A stretch of DNA of 39,353 nt from Clostridia bacterium. Lineage in GTDB: Bacteria > Bacillota > Clostridia > Peptostreptococcales > JAAYPU01. The position numbers and the translations under genes are program-made. Shown here piece by piece: positions 1-39,353 of this stretch. The stretch lies in the NCBI GenBank assembly GCA_016278615.1, contig JADQBM010000012.1, forward strand, positions 29,206 to 68,558. Reading direction: 5' to 3'. The notes below the pieces were generated by a model that saw only the letters and a list, made by a program, of their open reading frames with translations, did not search any database and was not told the DNA's origin. Position 1 is the first letter of the stretch. Each line of letters starts with the position of its first letter.

Positions 1-271
1 ATCTTTTATCTCTTATCTTCTCTTATCTTTTCTGTCCCCTGTCCCCTGTCCCCTGAACTGATAGATTGCCACGTCACTTTAAACTCCTCGCGATGACAAA
101 TATAATTATAATAGCATGACAATTAAAAATGAAGATTTTGCCCCTAAGTACTCCAAAATCAACCACAACTCTTATCTATTATCTTTTATCTCTTATCTTC
201 TCTTATCTTTTCTGTCCCCTGTCCCCTGTCCCCTGTCCCCTGTTCCCTAATCCCTAATCCCTAATCCCTAC
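1..271. repeat. Repeat mosaic at left edge (heptamer arrays, hairpin, dispersed repeat)
   Basis: Bases 1-54 and 181-234 are the same sequence in direct orientation. It starts as TTATCT-type units and passes into CTGTCCC heptamers. Between the copies lie an inverted copy of the TGTCATTGCGAG dispersed repeat (63-98) and a hairpin, GATTTTG at 134-140 with CAAAATC at 154-160. After 234 the second copy continues as CTGTCCC units that change into CTAATCC units and end near 271. No gene is visible in 1-326. The hairpin plus outward array matches elements at 9259-9322, 13131-13219 and 33082-33141. Confidence 0.85.
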
Positions 272-11097: not shown

Positions 11098-11251
11098 TAT
11101 ATAATAGGAAATATCGATTTCTATTATATAAAAAAGAGGGGAGTGCAGAGGGGAATCCCCTTTGTCGGTAAAGGAGGGTGCTCAGACTGTGATAGCAGTC
11201 GACGAAGGGAACCATAGGGTTCCATAGCGGAGTGGCGAAGCCACTTTTTTT
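11097..11251 (+). ncRNA. Highly structured leader or repeat upstream of crt, ending in a terminator
   Basis: Successive hairpins are packed here. An AT-rich stem is at 11097-11112/11117-11131, followed by AGGGG..CCCCT near 11137-11151, GACTG..CAGTC near 11185-11200, and GGAACC..GGTTCC near 11208-11222. A final AGTGGC-GAA-GCCACT at 11231-11245 is followed by seven T residues. The last is a textbook intrinsic terminator, and crt starts 80 nt later. This fits a cis-acting attenuator or a small RNA. It matches no riboswitch class I can name, and a structured dispersed repeat is an equally open explanation. Confidence 0.45.
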
Positions 11252-29883: not shown

Positions 29884-31266
29884 ATGAATGTAATAAAGAC
29901 AGAGATTGAAGAAGTTATCATCATCGAACCTAAAGTTTTTGGTGATTATAGAGGTTGGTTTACAGAAACTTATTCGAAAGAAAAATTTGAAGAAATAGAA
30001 ATTAAAATTGATTTTGTTCAAGATAACCATTCTTTCTCTGCTCAAAAAGGTACTTTAAGAGGCTTACATTTTCAGAACAACCCTAAAGCTCAAACAAAAC
30101 TTATTAGATGTACAAGAGGAAAGATTTTTGATGTTGCAGTGGATTTACGTAAAGGTTCTTCAACATATAAGAAATGGGTCGCTGTTGAGCTTTCTGAAGA
30201 TAATAAAAAGCAACTTCTTATACCAAAAGGATTTGCTCATGGTTTTATTGCATTAACAGACAATGTGGAGGTACAGTATAAGGTTGATGAATACTATTCA
30301 CCGGAAAATGATCGAAGTATTAGATTTGACGATCCTGAAATTGGGATTGAGTGGGGAATAGAAAATCCCATTTTATCCGAAAAAGATTCAAATGCACCAC
30401 TCTTAAAAGATAGTGATGCTAATTTCAGTATTAGAGTTCTAGTAACAGGAGTAAAAGGCCAGCTAGGGTATGATGTCGTAAAAAGACTTAATGAACTTGG
30501 CATTGAAAACATTGGTACTGACATAGATGATTTTGATATTACCAATAAACTTCAAACTGAAGAATACATTTTAAACTATAAACCAGCTGTTGTAGTACAT
30601 TGTGCAGCATATACAGCGGTAGATAAAGCAGAAGAAGATAAAGATAAATGCTATGCAATTAATGTCGACGGTACAAAAAATATTGCTGAAGCTTGCAAAA
30701 AGATAGATGCAAAGATGGTATATATAAGCACTGATTATGTTTTTGATGGAAAAGGTGAAGAAGCTCATCATGAAGATAAGTTAACAAACCCTGTCAATTA
30801 CTATGGTTATTCTAAAGAACAAGGCGAAAAAGTCGTCAGAGAATTATTAGGCAAACATTTCATTATAAGAACTTCTTGGGCATATGGTAAAAATGGGAAT
30901 AATTTTGTTAAAACAATGCTGAAGCTAGCTGAGTCTAGGGCTGAATTAAATGTAATTTATGATCAGGTAGGGGCTCCCACCTATACGCCTGATTTAGCAG
31001 TATTAATATGTGATATGATTCAAACAACAAAATATGGAACATACCATGGCGTGAATGAGGGTTATTGTAGCTGGTATGATTTTGCAGGTGCTATATTTAA
31101 AAAGGCAAATATTAATATGAGAATAAATTCAATACCAACATCAGAATATCCAACCAAAGCCAAAAGACCTTTAAATTCAAGATTATCTAAAGCAAGACTA
31201 GATGAGAACGGATTTCCAAGATTGCCAAAGTGGGAAGATGCTTTAGATAGGTATTTTGAAAGTTAG
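29884..31266 (+). CDS. rmlC-rmlD: Fused dTDP-4-dehydrorhamnose 3,5-epimerase / dTDP-4-dehydrorhamnose reductase
   Basis: This 460-residue bifunctional protein carries out the last two steps of dTDP-L-rhamnose synthesis. Residues 1-178 are RmlC: DYRGWFTETY, TLRGLHFQ with catalytic His62, and IPKGFAHGF. Residues 183-460 are RmlD: VLVTGVKGQLGYDV (Rossmann, 185-198), CAAYTAVDKAE, ISTDYVFDG and the SDR Tyr307/Lys311 pair in YYGYSK. The C-terminus ends RLPKWEDALDRYF. The short linker (about 178-183) indicates a true gene fusion rather than readthrough. The start follows GAGAGGG. rmlB and rmlA follow, each separated by a repeat-bounded cassette. Confidence 0.93.
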   Translation: MNVIKTEIEEVIIIEPKVFGDYRGWFTETYSKEKFEEIEIKIDFVQDNHSFSAQKGTLRGLHFQNNPKAQTKLIRCTRGKIFDVAVDLRKGSSTYKKWVAVELSEDNKKQLLIPKGFAHGFIALTDNVEVQYKVDEYYSPENDRSIRFDDPEIGIEWGIENPILSEKDSNAPLLKDSDANFSIRVLVTGVKGQLGYDVVKRLNELGIENIGTDIDDFDITNKLQTEEYILNYKPAVVVHCAAYTAVDKAEEDKDKCYAINVDGTKNIAEACKKIDAKMVYISTDYVFDGKGEEAHHEDKLTNPVNYYGYSKEQGEKVVRELLGKHFIIRTSWAYGKNGNNFVKTMLKLAESRAELNVIYDQVGAPTYTPDLAVLICDMIQTTKYGTYHGVNEGYCSWYDFAGAIFKKANINMRINSIPTSEYPTKAKRPLNSRLSKARLDENGFPRLPKWEDALDRYFES

Positions 31267-31848
31267 TAGTTCGAGGTTCGAAGTTTGAGGTTTGAGGTTC
31301 ATAGTTCGAGGTTCGAAGTTCGGTGTAGTTCAGAATTAAAGAATCACCGAATTGGAATGTAAAAGAGGGATAATATGCATATTTTTGGATTCGAAAAATT
31401 GGATACATGGCAATTTGCTAAAAAATTAGTTTTAGATGTGTACAAGATAACAAAAAAATTCCCAACAACAGAACAGTTCGGGCTTGTTTCACAAATGAAT
31501 CGGGCTGCAATTTCAGTTCCTTCAAATATTGCAGAAGGGGTTGGTAGAAGCAGTTCTAAAGAACAAGTTCACTTTTTAGATATTGCTTATGGCTCTTTAA
31601 TGGAACTAGCATGTCAATTAAGCATTAGTTGGGAATTAGAATATATAATAACCAAAGACTATGAGCAAATAAGGAAAGATATTCTAGTACTTACAAAGAT
31701 GTTACTAAAACTAAAATCTTCTCTGAAAAAATGAAACACGAAATACAAACTACGACCACAAACCACGAACTACGTACCGTAAATACAAACTACGAACCAC
31801 GAACTACAAACCGTAAATACGAACCACGAACCACGAACCACGAACCAT
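31264..31848 (+). mobile_element. Cassette 1: four-helix-bundle gene between inverted heptamer arrays
   Basis: The left array (31264-31332) is built of TTCGAGG/TTCGAAG/TTTGAGG units. The right array (31738-31848) is built of ACCACGA/ACTACGA units, which read TTCGTGG on the other strand, so the two arrays form an imperfect inverted pair. A 7-bp stem TTCGGTG/CACCGAA lies inside the left end (31319-31325/31345-31351). The only gene is the four-helix-bundle ORF at 31375-31734. The total of about 585 bp is close to cassette 2. It sits in the rml operon between rmlCD and rmlB, in the operon's orientation. Confidence 0.7.
31375..31734 (+). CDS. Four-helix-bundle protein (S23 / Avd-like family)
   Basis: This is a 119-residue protein of the family first described as encoded in 23S rRNA intervening sequences (TIGR02436 type), which shares its fold with Avd of diversity-generating retroelements. 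The family signature is complete: FEKLDTWQFAKKLVLDVYKITKKFP (6-30), NRAAISVPSNIAEGVGRSS (42-60), then FLDIAYGSLMELACQL. Such proteins form basic pentameric barrels that can bind nucleic acid; the function of free-standing members is unknown. The ATG follows AGAGGGA. No reverse transcriptase, template repeat or rRNA is present nearby. It is flanked on both sides by inverted short-repeat arrays, which suggests it belongs to the cassette rather than to rhamnose synthesis. Confidence 0.9.
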   Translation: MHIFGFEKLDTWQFAKKLVLDVYKITKKFPTTEQFGLVSQMNRAAISVPSNIAEGVGRSSSKEQVHFLDIAYGSLMELACQLSISWELEYIITKDYEQIRKDILVLTKMLLKLKSSLKK

Positions 31849-31869: not shown

Positions 31870-33090
31870 TTGAAAAATATCTTAATAACAGGTGGTGCAG
31901 GCTTCATAGGAAGTAATTTTGTAAAACGAATGTTAGAAAAACACCCTGAATATAAGATTATCAATGTTGATGCTTTGACATACGCAGGAAATTTGGAAAA
32001 TCTTAAAGATATAGATCATAATAAAAATTACACTTTTATAAAAGCTGATATTCGAGATAGAGAAAAGATTAGAGAAATCTTTAATACTTATGACATAGAT
32101 AGCGTTGTTAATTTTGCTGCGGAATCTCATGTTGACAGAAGTATAGAAGAACCGGAAGTATTCTTAACTACAAATATTATAGGTACTCAAACATTACTCG
32201 ATGCAGCAAAAAACCACTGGAAAATAAATCCTAATGATAAGTATTGTAGGGATTATAAAGCAGGAGTAAAGTTTCTCCAAGTATCTACCGATGAGGTTTA
32301 TGGTGCTTTGGGTGAAACAGGCATGTTTGTTGAGACCATGCCGCTTATGCCAAACAGTCCTTATTCTGCTTCAAAAGCAAGTGCAGATATGATTGTCAGA
32401 GCTTACAATGAAACCTTTGGTTTGCCTGTTAATATTACCAGATGCAGTAACAATTATGGTGCATACCAATTTCCAGAGAAACTCATTCCTCTAATGATCA
32501 ATAATTGTCTGAATGAAAAAGAATTACCCGTTTATGGAGATGGAATGCAAATAAGAGATTGGCTTCATGTAAAAGATCATTGCTCTGCCATTGATACAGT
32601 TCTTCATAAAGGAGAAGATGGAGAAGTTTATAATATTGGAGGCAACAACGAAAAAGCAAATATAGAAATTGTGAAGTTGATTATTGACACAGTCCGCGAG
32701 AAAATTTCCTCTGTCATTGCGAGGAGCGAAAGCGACGTGGCAATCTCTGATATGTCATTACAAGGAGCAAAGCGACATAGCAATCTCCAGCCTGACACTT
32801 CGAACTCCGAACCACAAACTGTTTCCAAACCACAAACCACGAACCACGAACCAAACTTAATCAATTATCAACTGATTAAGTACGTCAAAGACCGCCCAGG
32901 CCATGACAAGCGATATGCCATTGACAACACAAAAATCACCACAGAGTTAGGCTGGGAGCCCAAATATACCTTTGAACAAGGAATAAAAGAAACCATCCAA
33001 TGGTATCTAGACAACACTGAATGGATTGATAATATCGTATCTGGTGATTATATAAAGTACTATGAGAAAATGTACAGTAATAGAGGTTAG
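31870..33090 (+). CDS. rmlB: dTDP-glucose 4,6-dehydratase with an in-frame repeat-derived insertion
   Basis: This enzyme converts dTDP-glucose to dTDP-4-keto-6-deoxyglucose. It has 406 residues against about 350 in the family. NAD-binding GGAGFIG is at 8-14, and the active-site Thr140-Asp141-Glu142 lies in STDEVYG. Tyr165/Lys169 lie in SPYSASK, and YVKDRPGHDKRYAID forms the C-terminal conserved block. The excess of about 53 residues (about 279-331) lies between VKLIIDTVREK and INYQLIKYVKDRPGHD and is encoded by dispersed repeats and heptamers; it has no stop codon or frameshift. The TTG start follows GAAGGGAG. Whether the protein remains active is open, but the frame is intact and the catalytic residues are all present. 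Confidence 0.92.
   Translation: MKNILITGGAGFIGSNFVKRMLEKHPEYKIINVDALTYAGNLENLKDIDHNKNYTFIKADIRDREKIREIFNTYDIDSVVNFAAESHVDRSIEEPEVFLTTNIIGTQTLLDAAKNHWKINPNDKYCRDYKAGVKFLQVSTDEVYGALGETGMFVETMPLMPNSPYSASKASADMIVRAYNETFGLPVNITRCSNNYGAYQFPEKLIPLMINNCLNEKELPVYGDGMQIRDWLHVKDHCSAIDTVLHKGEDGEVYNIGGNNEKANIEIVKLIIDTVREKISSVIARSESDVAISDMSLQGAKRHSNLQPDTSNSEPQTVSKPQTTNHEPNLINYQLIKYVKDRPGHDKRYAIDNTKITTELGWEPKYTFEQGIKETIQWYLDNTEWIDNIVSGDYIKYYEKMYSNRG
32704..32863 (+). repeat. Repeat insertion inside rmlB
   Basis: Two tandem copies of the TGTCATTGCGAG dispersed repeat (32712-32747 and 32753-32787) are followed by ACCACAA/ACCACGA heptamers (about 32797-32855), the same units as the right array of cassette 1. 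All of it lies inside the rmlB reading frame and is translated as a Ser/Gln/Asn/Pro-rich segment. Confidence 0.88.
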
Positions 33091-33654
33091 AGGTTAAGGG
33101 TTAGAGGTTAGTGAAGGTTGATTTTATTCTAAAATCTTCATGAATAATCATTTGAGAATGGGGGACAAGAGATTAGTTTTTTGTAAACTGATAAAAGGGG
33201 GATATTCAAATTGAATAGCAAGTATAGAAAAGTTATTGTATGGGAAAAGGCGCATAAATTAACTTTAGATATATATAGATTAACCTCGACGTTCCCTCGG
33301 AGTGAGATGTATGGAATAACATCACAATTAAGAAGGTCAACTAGTTCAGTACCCGCGAACATTGTGGAAGGCTATTCAAGAGGGGGTACGAAGCAATACA
33401 TTAACTTCTTGACAATAGCGAATGGCTCTTTGGCAGAAACCTCATATTTTTTACTTTTAGCTTATGAATTAGATTATATAAAAGAAAAAGAATATATCAA
33501 ACTGGAAGAGAAATGTGAAGAAATAGGTAAGATGCTTAATGCAACAATAAAAACATTAAGAAATAGAGAAGGGATTGGATAAGTTATATATGATGAAAAT
33601 TTTGTTTACAAAATTCTACCATCACTAACCTCTAACCTCCAACCTCTAACCTCT
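33082..33654 (+). mobile_element. Cassette 2: four-helix-bundle gene with about 60-nt terminal inverted repeats
   Basis: The left outer array (33082-33117) and right outer array (33619-33654) are 36 nt each and match as an inverted repeat at 32 of 36 positions. They are built of AGAGGTT heptamers. Just inside each lies a hairpin: GATTTTA-TTC-TAAAATC (33120-33136) on the left, and AATTTTG-TTTA-CAAAATT (33598-33604/33609-33615) on the right. The hairpins are also inverted relative to each other, so the terminal repeats extend to about 60 nt. The 573-bp unit contains one gene, the four-helix-bundle ORF at 33211-33582. It lies between rmlB and rmlA. No target-site duplication is obvious. Confidence 0.82.
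33211..33582 (+). CDS. Four-helix-bundle protein (S23 / Avd-like family), second copy
   Basis: This 123-residue protein is of the same family as the one at 31375 but clearly divergent, so the two cassettes are not a recent duplication. Signature segments are VWEKAHKLTLDIYRLTSTFPRSEMYGI (10-36), RRSTSSVPANIVEGYSRGG (41-59) and FLTIANGSLAETSYFL. The many Lys and Arg residues make it basic, as expected for nucleic-acid binding. The TTG start follows GGGGG by 9 nt. It lies inside the inverted repeats of cassette 2 and is oriented with the operon. The cellular role is unknown; action on its own transcript or on the flanking hairpins is a hypothesis. Confidence 0.9.
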   Translation: MNSKYRKVIVWEKAHKLTLDIYRLTSTFPRSEMYGITSQLRRSTSSVPANIVEGYSRGGTKQYINFLTIANGSLAETSYFLLLAYELDYIKEKEYIKLEEKCEEIGKMLNATIKTLRNREGIG

Positions 33655-33676
33655 TTTCTGAAAGGAGTAAAAGGAA

Positions 33677-35543: not shown

Positions 35544-35650
35544 ACAATTGATAATTGAGAATGGAAATTGGAAAAAAGAAATTCTCAATTTGAATTTCAA
35601 CATTAATTATCAATTGTCAACTATCAATTTTCAATTGACAAGTCGAGGGA
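35544..35650. repeat. Palindromic array between wzm and wzt
   Basis: CAATTGATAATTGAGAATGG units on the left are mirrored by TTATCAATTGTCAACTATCA units on the right. A perfect 8-bp stem, TTGAGAAT/ATTCTCAA (near 35554 and 35580), lies inside the left half. The array separates two subunit genes that are normally tightly coupled. An open frame crossing it is rejected as a gene. Confidence 0.75.
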
Positions 35651-38112: not shown

Positions 38113-39353
38113 ATGAACTTGGTTAACGGAGAGAAAAATAAGTTTTTTTCTTTACCAGAAGACAGTGAGAACAGGTATTTTATTGAAAACAAAGAGTCTG
38201 AACATGCAAAAATTATGACGGAACATATTGCAGAAAATTCTGCTGTTTTGGACATTGCGTGTGGTCAGGGATATTTTGGAAGATATTTAAGAGGTAAAAA
38301 TTGCAAAATATATGGTATAGATATTGACGGAAAGGCAATCCAGTGTGCATTAAAAACAGGAGATTATGAGTGGGTAGAGACTATAAATATTACAAATTAT
38401 GTATGGATTGATGATGAAAAAATAAAAGAAATACAAGGGAAACTTGACGTAATTATTTTGGCAGATATTATTGAACATTTATCAGACCCTACTGCACTTA
38501 TTGTTCAGTGTAAAAAGCTGTTGAAAAGGGATGGCATAATATTGATCAGTGTGCCAAATATAGCACATATAAATATCGAACTAATGCTTTTGAACGGAAT
38601 TTTCAACTATGAGCAGATGGGGATTTTGGACAATACGCATTTGAAGTTTTTTACAAGACGTTCTTTTAAGCAGTGGATAGAATTAATTAATAGTTCATAC
38701 GAAGATTTCAACTTGATAGCTGAATATATTGACGAAACAGAATATATTGATGAGTACAGCAAGAAGATTGAAAATAAATACCCTGAACTATATTCTATCT
38801 TAAGCAGAAGAAAAAATACTAATGCTTTGCAAATTATATTTAAACTAGTTCCAGAGGGTTTAGCGTCTATACGTAGTGAGGACGAAGATGCGGATGTTAT
38901 TGAAATTCTTGGTGGTGCCTTACAGGGGCAGGAGAATATTCAAAGTTTGTTGAAGAAATCAACTTATGGGTTAGATGAAAAAATTAAGATGCTGACCAAG
39001 CATGTAACAGAAAAAAATGACTATATAAATGAACTTGAAAAAGGAATCAGATGGCATTTTGAAAAAGAAAATGATTTACAAAAAAGCATTGAGGCAAAGG
39101 ACAGTTATATAAAAGAACTTGAAAGCGGAGTAGCGTGGCAGAAAGAAAAAATAGCGCAAACAGAGCAAGTAATAGAAGCAAAGGTCAGATATAAAAAAGA
39201 GCTTGAAAGCGGAGTAGAGTGGCAGAAAGAAAAAATAGCACAGGCAGACCAAGCAATAGAAGCCAAGGATAGCTATATAAAAGAGCTTGAAAGCGGAGTA
39301 GAGTGGCAGAAAGAAAAAATAGCACAGGCAGACCAAGCAATAGAAGCCAAGGA
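38113..39353 (+). CDS. SAM-dependent methyltransferase with tandem coiled-coil repeats (partial)
   Basis: At least 413 residues are present and the gene runs off the right edge. The class I SAM methyltransferase domain is at about 20-230: motif I AVLDIACGQGYFG (44-56), IYGIDIDG, VIILADIIEHL and LISVPNIAHINIE. From about residue 302 the protein becomes a charged helical region of 28-residue tandem repeats. The consensus is like DSYIKELESGVEWQKEKIAQ followed by ADQAIEAK, at least four units, with 28 equal to four heptads. Next to a Wzt with a C-terminal domain, this matches the layout of WbdD-type chain terminators, which cap the glycan and set its length through a coiled coil. A kinase domain has not been seen before the window ends. 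It starts 1 nt after the SDR stop. Confidence 0.85.
   Translation, partial: MNLVNGEKNKFFSLPEDSENRYFIENKESEHAKIMTEHIAENSAVLDIACGQGYFGRYLRGKNCKIYGIDIDGKAIQCALKTGDYEWVETINITNYVWIDDEKIKEIQGKLDVIILADIIEHLSDPTALIVQCKKLLKRDGIILISVPNIAHINIELMLLNGIFNYEQMGILDNTHLKFFTRRSFKQWIELINSSYEDFNLIAEYIDETEYIDEYSKKIENKYPELYSILSRRKNTNALQIIFKLVPEGLASIRSEDEDADVIEILGGALQGQENIQSLLKKSTYGLDEKIKMLTKHVTEKNDYINELEKGIRWHFEKENDLQKSIEAKDSYIKELESGVAWQKEKIAQTEQVIEAKVRYKKELESGVEWQKEKIAQADQAIEAKDSYIKELESGVEWQKEKIAQADQAIEAK
39016..39351 (+). repeat. Four tandem 84-bp coding repeats in the methyltransferase gene
   Basis: Units are 39016-39099, 39100-39183, 39184-39267 and 39268-39351. Each encodes 28 residues with a central Trp and the ending IEAK. 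The last two units are identical at DNA level over about 70 of 84 bases, which indicates recent duplication. The array continues beyond the window edge. Confidence 0.9.

Follow-up and report, generated by a model that had tools for sequence, protein, structure and literature searches.

As described in excerpts of Warrier et al. (2016, PMC4990558), the intervening sequence (IVS) in the 23S rRNA of Coxiella is excised by RNase III and carries two to three tandem GACAGAT heptamers at its 5' end; the S23 protein of Xanthomonas is cited there as a homopentamer. Excerpts of PMC11270868 report open reading frames (ORFs) for S23/IVP proteins in 16S and 23S inserts of Candidate Phyla Radiation (CPR) bacteria and call these proteins functionally uncharacterised. 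Here, a 573-nt unit with an S23 gene was analysed, which sits between rmlB and rmlA in a window (the whole stretch of DNA under study, 39,353 nucleotides) from a Clostridia bacterium. Both ends of the unit are arrays of a heptamer, inverted to each other. By its location the unit is not a 23S IVS, and Rfam found no rRNA in the window. On balance, we favour reading it as an intervening-sequence-type S23 (IVP) cassette in an mRNA spacer. The occurrence of the same design in bacteria and some archaea, in rRNA, RNase P RNA and operons, suggests one widespread and little-noticed type of inserted element.

A preliminary description of this DNA, made from the sequence alone, had reported AGAGGTT-type inverted arrays, subterminal hairpins and a gene of the S23 family. 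The arrays were confirmed by recounting, since 32 of the 36 core positions match as inverted copies, and the repeat tool extended the pair to 47 nt (85%; coordinates in Table 1). The pattern AGGTTAGAGGTTAG, derived from the arrays themselves, was found with at most two mismatches at six window sites, all within the two arrays (expected 0.22; none of 100 shuffles reached six). Both hairpins are present, with stems GATTTTA/TAAAATC on the left and AATTTTG/CAAAATT on the right, but their claimed likeness to each other is only partial. The rmlB frame terminates at TAG 33088-33090, within the first heptamers of the 5' arm. The S23 protein is a member of PF05635 (23S_rRNA_IVP), scoring 137.8 bits against a curated cut-off of 33.8; the bAvd profile matched at 1.1e-8, under its own cut-off. 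In sequence, the protein is also related to two entries of known structure: 2gsc, which contains five chains, and 2rld. In the predicted RNA fold of 33075-33660, the two arrays pair to close one stem (-153.2 kcal/mol, z -6.4, equalled by none of 100 shuffles). No group I or group II intron core was found in the unit by Rfam at gathering scores, which returned only a Clostridiales-2 RNA in the window.

The flanks of S23 genes were compared by a flank test, in which the two 400-nt flanks of a locus were scored for their best inverted match, and this score was set against scores with the flanks of other loci (swaps). S23/IVP matches were present in 78 of 398 genomes of the phylum, 63 of them above the family cut-off. 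The first set comprised 94 distinct S23 loci fetched from the phylum (up to L119; L, G and C numbers are our handles for loci, genomes and contigs), which is not every listed match, and the second set comprised 79 loci of named genomes, taken from the 80 best among at least 539 relatives. Before the test, loci were excluded if either flank fell short of 400 nt, as were domains whose match covered fewer than 70 profile positions. Three genes of the first set recur in the second (L164 = L092, L165 = L096, L190 = L083), all passing, so that 76 loci are new; the duplicates are retained in the combined set (173), the heptamer count and the tree, and two armless loci, L091 and L094, share part of their gene.

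In the first set, the own-flank median was 17.5 and the swap median 9.5 (95th percentile 12.5), with 65 of 94 loci above 95% of their swaps and 47 above 99%. In the second set, the corresponding numbers were 62 and 44 of 79 (59 and 41 of 76 without the duplicates). Random positions passed at the 95% level in 8 of 144 cases in other S23 genomes and in 1 of 108 cases in the source genome. With swaps taken inside the same genome, the own pair beat all swaps in 31 of 39 loci. Arms are thus matched within a copy. The passing loci of the second set belonged to Bacillota, Chloroflexota, Bacteroidota, Pseudomonadota, Acidobacteriota, Planctomycetota, candidate phyla and others, and two were archaeal [Methanophagales (L197) and Methanosarcinales (L238)].

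Analysis of the arms revealed an identity of 0.62 at lag 7 and 0.58 at lag 14, against 0.22-0.31 at all other lags; of the 127 loci that passed in the combined set, 104 had their best lag at 7 or 14. The 90 arms with a clear period had 77 different consensus heptamers. Arm length peaked at 30-39 nt (52 of 127), and the 5' arm was poor in C on the inward-reading strand (519 of 4691 letters). The 5' arm begins at a median of 6 nt from the end of the co-directional upstream frame and overlaps that frame in 31 of 95 cases. A mirrored order of heptamer variants, over and above the unit common to both arms, was not upheld: taken singly, 16 of 66 loci exceeded 95% of order shuffles. Arms paired better in register than after a shift by 7 in 77 of 81 loci, a measure that is biased because the aligner chooses the register. 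A few loci have arms with other periods, for example, by eye, about 11 nt in L078, L086 and L089. The inverted arms of L082 are built from a roughly 30-nt unit (GGTCGGTRTGACGTC) instead of heptamers. At L024, one S23 gene is flanked by nested double arms (1359-1427 and about 1870-1945); both the outer AACTAAT-type and the inner AGATGAT-type array are mirrored in order on its other side.

S23 cassettes inside 23S rRNA genes were detected with Rfam at L069, L079, L093, L103 and L109/L110, and one more (L166, Candidatus Formimonas warabiya) was assigned from identically spaced, conserved 23S motifs on either side. At L069 the insert takes the place of the loop of one helix, and its arms prolong that 23S helix. 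We take the helix to be helix 45, in line with the Coxiella site given in PMC4990558. At L169, 23S motifs were seen on the downstream side only, and two further S23 matches, partly masked, adjoin 23S matches (G277 and G074).

Three cassettes (L090, L096 and L092) interrupt an RNase P RNA that is otherwise complete (RF00010, model 1-367). The insertion point, read at L096 (= L165, from Carboxydothermus islandicus), is one helix tip, between model positions 136 and 141; L092 (= L164) is from one Clostridia genome. The helix is presumably P12. All host RNAs recognised by a full model, a two-sided 23S model or two-sided motifs have the same sense as the S23 gene. A literature search covering the listed titles and abstract openings, with subscription journals mostly outside its coverage, retrieved no report of S23 inserts in RNase P RNA and no paper on heptamer-armed S23 cassettes as a general rule. 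The proposal of an IVS-like design in an mRNA operon, made in the preliminary description, is largely supported, and the design is wider than was claimed.

In a tree of 170 rows, the 23S and RNase P inserts grouped in a single clade (97/90) whose 15 rows all have arms. Three members of the clade (L105, L167 and L170) lie in no RNA gene known to Rfam. The RNase P inserts occupy two places in this clade, near 23S inserts; these positions fit moves between RNA hosts, the inner forks being partly supported and the columns few. The arms of six 23S inserts could be anchored gap-free on the host helix over 26 columns, in which 91.7% of cells pair. The 265 derangements of these inserts gave a mean of 69.0% paired (best 75.6%), and none reached the observed value. 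Two-sided changes between standard pairs occurred in 15 of the 26 columns. Because the 23S flanks are homologous where compared, this is one insertion site whose arms changed together. G-U mismatches outnumbered A-C mismatches 14 to 6 in the six inserts, numbers too small for weight.

These inserts bear on the alternative that S23 is an ordinary chromosomal gene flanked by heptamers born of slippage, functionless and immobile, whose matching arose passively via hairpin-templated mutation. Arms do change fast, and excerpts of PMC4679880 report that most surveyed genomes have heptanucleotide repeats as their commonest class and ascribe these to polymerase slippage. However, matched arms accompany S23 genes and not random positions (the control being random positions alone), recur in two sets across many phyla, and lie inside 23S and RNase P RNA with their stem on a host helix, with the compensated columns described above. 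We regard this alternative as improbable.

Some RNA genes adjoin S23 genes without enclosing them. In three genomes (L104, L113 and L117), a transfer-messenger RNA (tmRNA) gene stands next to the cassette. In Daviesbacteria (L168), the S23 gene is immediately 5' of a 16S piece, and a group II intron domain follows 0.4 kb further. Five loci of DPANN archaea, armless and in one clade, are located downstream of 23S rRNA (four) or beside a 16S gene (one); at L175, L176, L187 and L211, all from DPANN archaea, the S23 gene lies about 130-520 nt past the 3' end of the 23S rRNA and has no matched arms. A scan of twenty loci, mostly armless, for hidden RNA hosts found only an RT-14 RNA, beside L034.

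The source genome contains four S23 genes, all with matched flanks and each with a different heptamer (AGAGGTT, GTTCGAG, AATAATG and AAGATTT). Their own-flank scores were 29.5, 23, 42 and 40, while swaps among the four gave 9-17. In 258 kb of this genome, 36 period-7 arrays were found, against 0-8 for each of the other periods from 4 to 15 (8 at period 14). The preliminary description had suggested a search for ends without the gene, and gene-less relatives proved abundant. By eye, 15 of 18 printed stretches showed the order array, hairpin, hairpin, inverted array, and the GATTTTG..CAAAATC hairpin had 168 exact occurrences in the genome (reversed control 0). The left end of the window cassette matches several other places in the genome. 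Some of the gene-less units are found between tRNA genes; a region with eleven tRNA genes (L137, 2929-5086) has units in some of its gaps.

The gene-less copies raise the possibility of a DNA-level element, whose arms and hairpins would be recognised as double- or single-stranded DNA by a transposition or recombination machine and whose matching would come from hairpin-mediated copying at replication, RNA pairing being a by-product. This account is possible, though we do not think it the likely one. It is in agreement with the many copies that share subterminal hairpins, some near tRNA genes, and with the arm mismatches, of which 153 were G-U compatible and 159 A-C, without an overall G-U bias. 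Since that bias is absent, selection on RNA pairing is not favoured over the whole set, and arm-to-arm copying at the DNA level is possible. On the other side, only the subterminal hairpins are common between copies in the source genome; the terminal heptamers are mostly unshared, unlike recognised transposon ends, and are matched within a copy, which also tells against the MITE-like (miniature inverted-repeat transposable element) nature considered in the preliminary description. The position at helix tips of structured RNA hosts is simpler to explain on the RNA level.

Nor was a candidate found for the outside enzyme that had been proposed to mobilise the unit. The genome has six Y1 transposase (Y1_Tnp) genes, and matched heptamer ends were seen at none of them, the visible upstream sequence being only 272 nt at L141 and 145 nt at L142. 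At four of these genes (L140, L130, L142 and L144), inverted ends other than heptamers were present, with scores of 19, 29, 18 and 13. At L144 (1131-1882), the ends are of the GTAGGGGTGGGTCC type; two unlike heptamer arrays lie outside them (inverted score 8.5), and one GATTTTG-type hairpin is 1.4 kb off. An origin as an IS200/IS605 element, a repetitive extragenic palindromic (REP) element with its associated tyrosine transposase (RAYT) or another Y1 element was rejected, as cassette-type ends flank no Y1 gene within the available sequence. A reverse transcriptase in cis, as in a diversity-generating retroelement, was likewise rejected, because the single RVT_1 match of the genome is on contig C63 and not on C37. 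One viral-contig scan, sensitive to close relatives only, found no relative of the window S23 protein.

The rml junctions were compared by reading the printed sequences of relatives' genomes. In G042, about 16 nt separate the rmlD stop from the rmlA start. In G007, the rmlD-rmlA gap of about 88 nt resembles a gene-less heptamer stem-loop (TTAGAGA type), with a weak fold (z -1.7; 13 of 200 shuffles as good). In G001, the rmlD-rmlA gap contains a decayed S23 cassette with AATTGAT arms, and the rmlB-rmlD gap has remnants of two S23 genes, one of them with a C-terminus, hairpin and AACCTCT arm nearly identical to those of the window cassette. The empty, gene-less and decayed states indicate that cassettes come and decay at rml gaps. 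The preliminary description had named the same spacer in all relatives as the finding that would speak against an inserted unit; the junctions varied instead, while an exact empty rmlB-rmlA site, by which the borders were to be defined, was not found among the relatives' rml junctions read.

The stem-loop at the G007 junction would also suit the reverse order of events, in which heptamer hairpins were genomic repeats first and S23 genes later entered their loops, so that the arms would be part of the target rather than of the cassette. Gene-less stem-loops are common in the source genome, and one of its S23 genes (L011) lies between two complete gene-less units that form its matched flanks. 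However, among 11 other S23 genomes, examined over 16-20 kb each, 7 had no period-7 array and the rest had 1, 1, 2 and 7, an S23 gene being part of the stretch that gave 7 (the G001 stretches, being S23 neighbourhoods, were not counted), yet all 7 array-free genomes carry at least one S23 gene with arms. The arms therefore accompany the S23 gene, and the source genome additionally has many gene-less units. Moreover, L067, L068 and L070 have S23 sequences 83-90% alike in unrelated flanks; their DNA similarity stops at or within the arms, and the arm type is kept. We consider hairpins before genes unlikely.

For the S23 cassette of the intervening-sequence type, the following working is proposed. 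The paired terminal arrays, of about five heptamers each, would lift the S23 gene off the host RNA in the transcript, as in 23S rRNA IVSs. To judge from this anatomy and from the published 23S IVS, the paired arms may provide double-stranded RNA for RNase III, so that the cassette would be removed or insulated and the host RNA would tolerate it. The S23 protein, which has a solved relative that forms a pentameric ring, may hold the arms, perhaps with one heptamer per subunit. The cassette may be an occasional selfish mover that settles at RNA helix tips and intercistronic gaps, its movement being seen as phylogenetic scatter. Arms that stay matched within a copy while the heptamer drifts could reflect compensatory selection on the RNA stem or arm-to-arm copying. 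Excision, mobility, RNase III cleavage and S23 binding are what we infer here.

Several observations weigh against this reading. At the 95% level, 46 of 173 loci were armless, and one clade of 15 had 14 armless members. The missing G-U bias described above belongs here as well. Co-directional neighbours were no more frequent than at control genes (86 of 109 against 241 of 323), and an orientation effect was dropped because the two shares are equal. The idea of one heptamer per subunit has arm length as its sole basis, and according to excerpts of PMC4990558 the S23 protein is probably not made in Coxiella.

A bolder version, which we hold to be rather unlikely, would make S23 cassettes a cross-domain class of RNA-tip elements, able to enter any transcript (rRNA, RNase P RNA or operon spacers) at its helix tips and carrying private, self-matched arrays at both ends. 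Each subunit of the pentameric S23 ring would read one heptamer, which makes about 35 nt for an arm, the arms would be rebuilt pairwise at each jump by templated copying, and the gene-less stem-loops would be offspring moved in trans by S23.

The private matched heptamers offer a nucleic-acid partner that changes predictably between copies, so that binding and processing are testable by arm swaps. The RNase P RNA inserts place a protein-coding cassette in an essential ribozyme, and the question is whether the ribozyme works in two pieces. Although treated as a 23S rRNA oddity, the IVS may represent a general type of insert found mainly in mRNA operons.

Other features of the window are included in Table 1. 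The preliminary description had overlooked a second S23 cassette 1.8 kb upstream of the unit, between the rmlCD fusion and rmlB, whose arms close it too (z -4.6, 20 shuffles), and a gene-less stem-loop in another gap further along this row of genes, which 2 of 200 shuffles equalled in folding. RmlB of G001 is shorter at the position of the insertion in the window rmlB.

Table 1. Positions of the S23 cassettes and other features in the window
Feature	Position	Strand	Evidence
5' arm of the window cassette, AGAGGTT heptamer array running into AAGGTTGATTTT	33079..33125 (core 33082-33117)	+	repeat search; pairs with 3' arm in fold
Left subterminal hairpin, GATTTTA-TTC-TAAAATC	33120..33136	+	sequence inspection; same type as the GATTTTG..CAAAATC hairpin found 168 times in the genome
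S23/IVP gene for a four-helix bundle, 123 aa, start codon TTG	33211..33582	+	PF05635 1.9e-40; 2gsc 3.7e-19
Right subterminal hairpin, AATTTTG-TTTA-CAAAATT	33598..33615	+	sequence inspection
3' arm, inverted copy of 5' arm	33611..33657 (core 33619-33654)	+	repeat search, fold, recount
5' arm of second S23 cassette, GTTCGAG-type heptamers	31261..31322	+	repeat search; locus L010, score 23, above all its swaps; fold
Second S23/IVP gene, 119 aa	31375..31734	+	PF05635 9.7e-37
3' arm of second S23 cassette, CGAACCA-type heptamers, inverted to 31261-31322	31741..31847	+	repeat search, fold
Gene-less heptamer stem-loop, AATTGAT type	~35545..35645	+	fold z -3.2
Single 460-aa frame, RmlC then RmlD (fusion)	29884..31266		
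Apparent in-frame insertion in rmlB: REP-like stretch (cattgcgaggagcgaaagcgacgtggcaatctc) and CGAACCA heptamers, translated through	32700..32860		
Clostridiales-2 RNA	11131..11212		RF02937
Duplicated TCTCTTATCT and CTGTCCC arrays, with TCCCTAA heptamers, close to window start	1..270		
84-nt tandem repeat up to window end	39084..39353		

Comparison with known systems showed that MITEs and REP-type repeats share short gene-less copies, inverted ends and subterminal hairpins with the units described here; they differ in that the window-type ends are mostly private to each copy and no partner transposase was found in the source genome. Avd of diversity-generating retroelements shares a fold family with S23, but the only reverse transcriptase match of the source genome is on another contig than the window S23 gene. 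The short tandemly repeated repetitive (STRR) sequences of cyanobacteria are heptamer direct repeats. Heptamers were also described in Beggiatoaceae by MacGregor (2015). In excerpts of that article (PMC4679880), the TAACTGA repeats are intergenic 7-bp units, nearly all direct repeats of one sequence, and a text search of the article found no mention of S23, intervening sequences or a four-helix protein. The rRNA inserts of CPR bacteria have S23/IVP ORFs in common with the cassettes, while a text search of PMC11270868 found no mention of a heptamer, inverted repeat or hairpin. Nor do the excerpts of PMC4990558 describe IVS ends as being generally made of inverted heptamers that match. The window unit differs from the 23S rRNA IVSs of Coxiella and Leptospira by its place in the rmlB-rmlA spacer, where RNase III may excise it; it resembles them in its S23/IVP gene and paired ends and, according to the excerpts of PMC4990558, resembles the Coxiella IVS in its tandem 5' heptamers and its length (573 against 428 nt).

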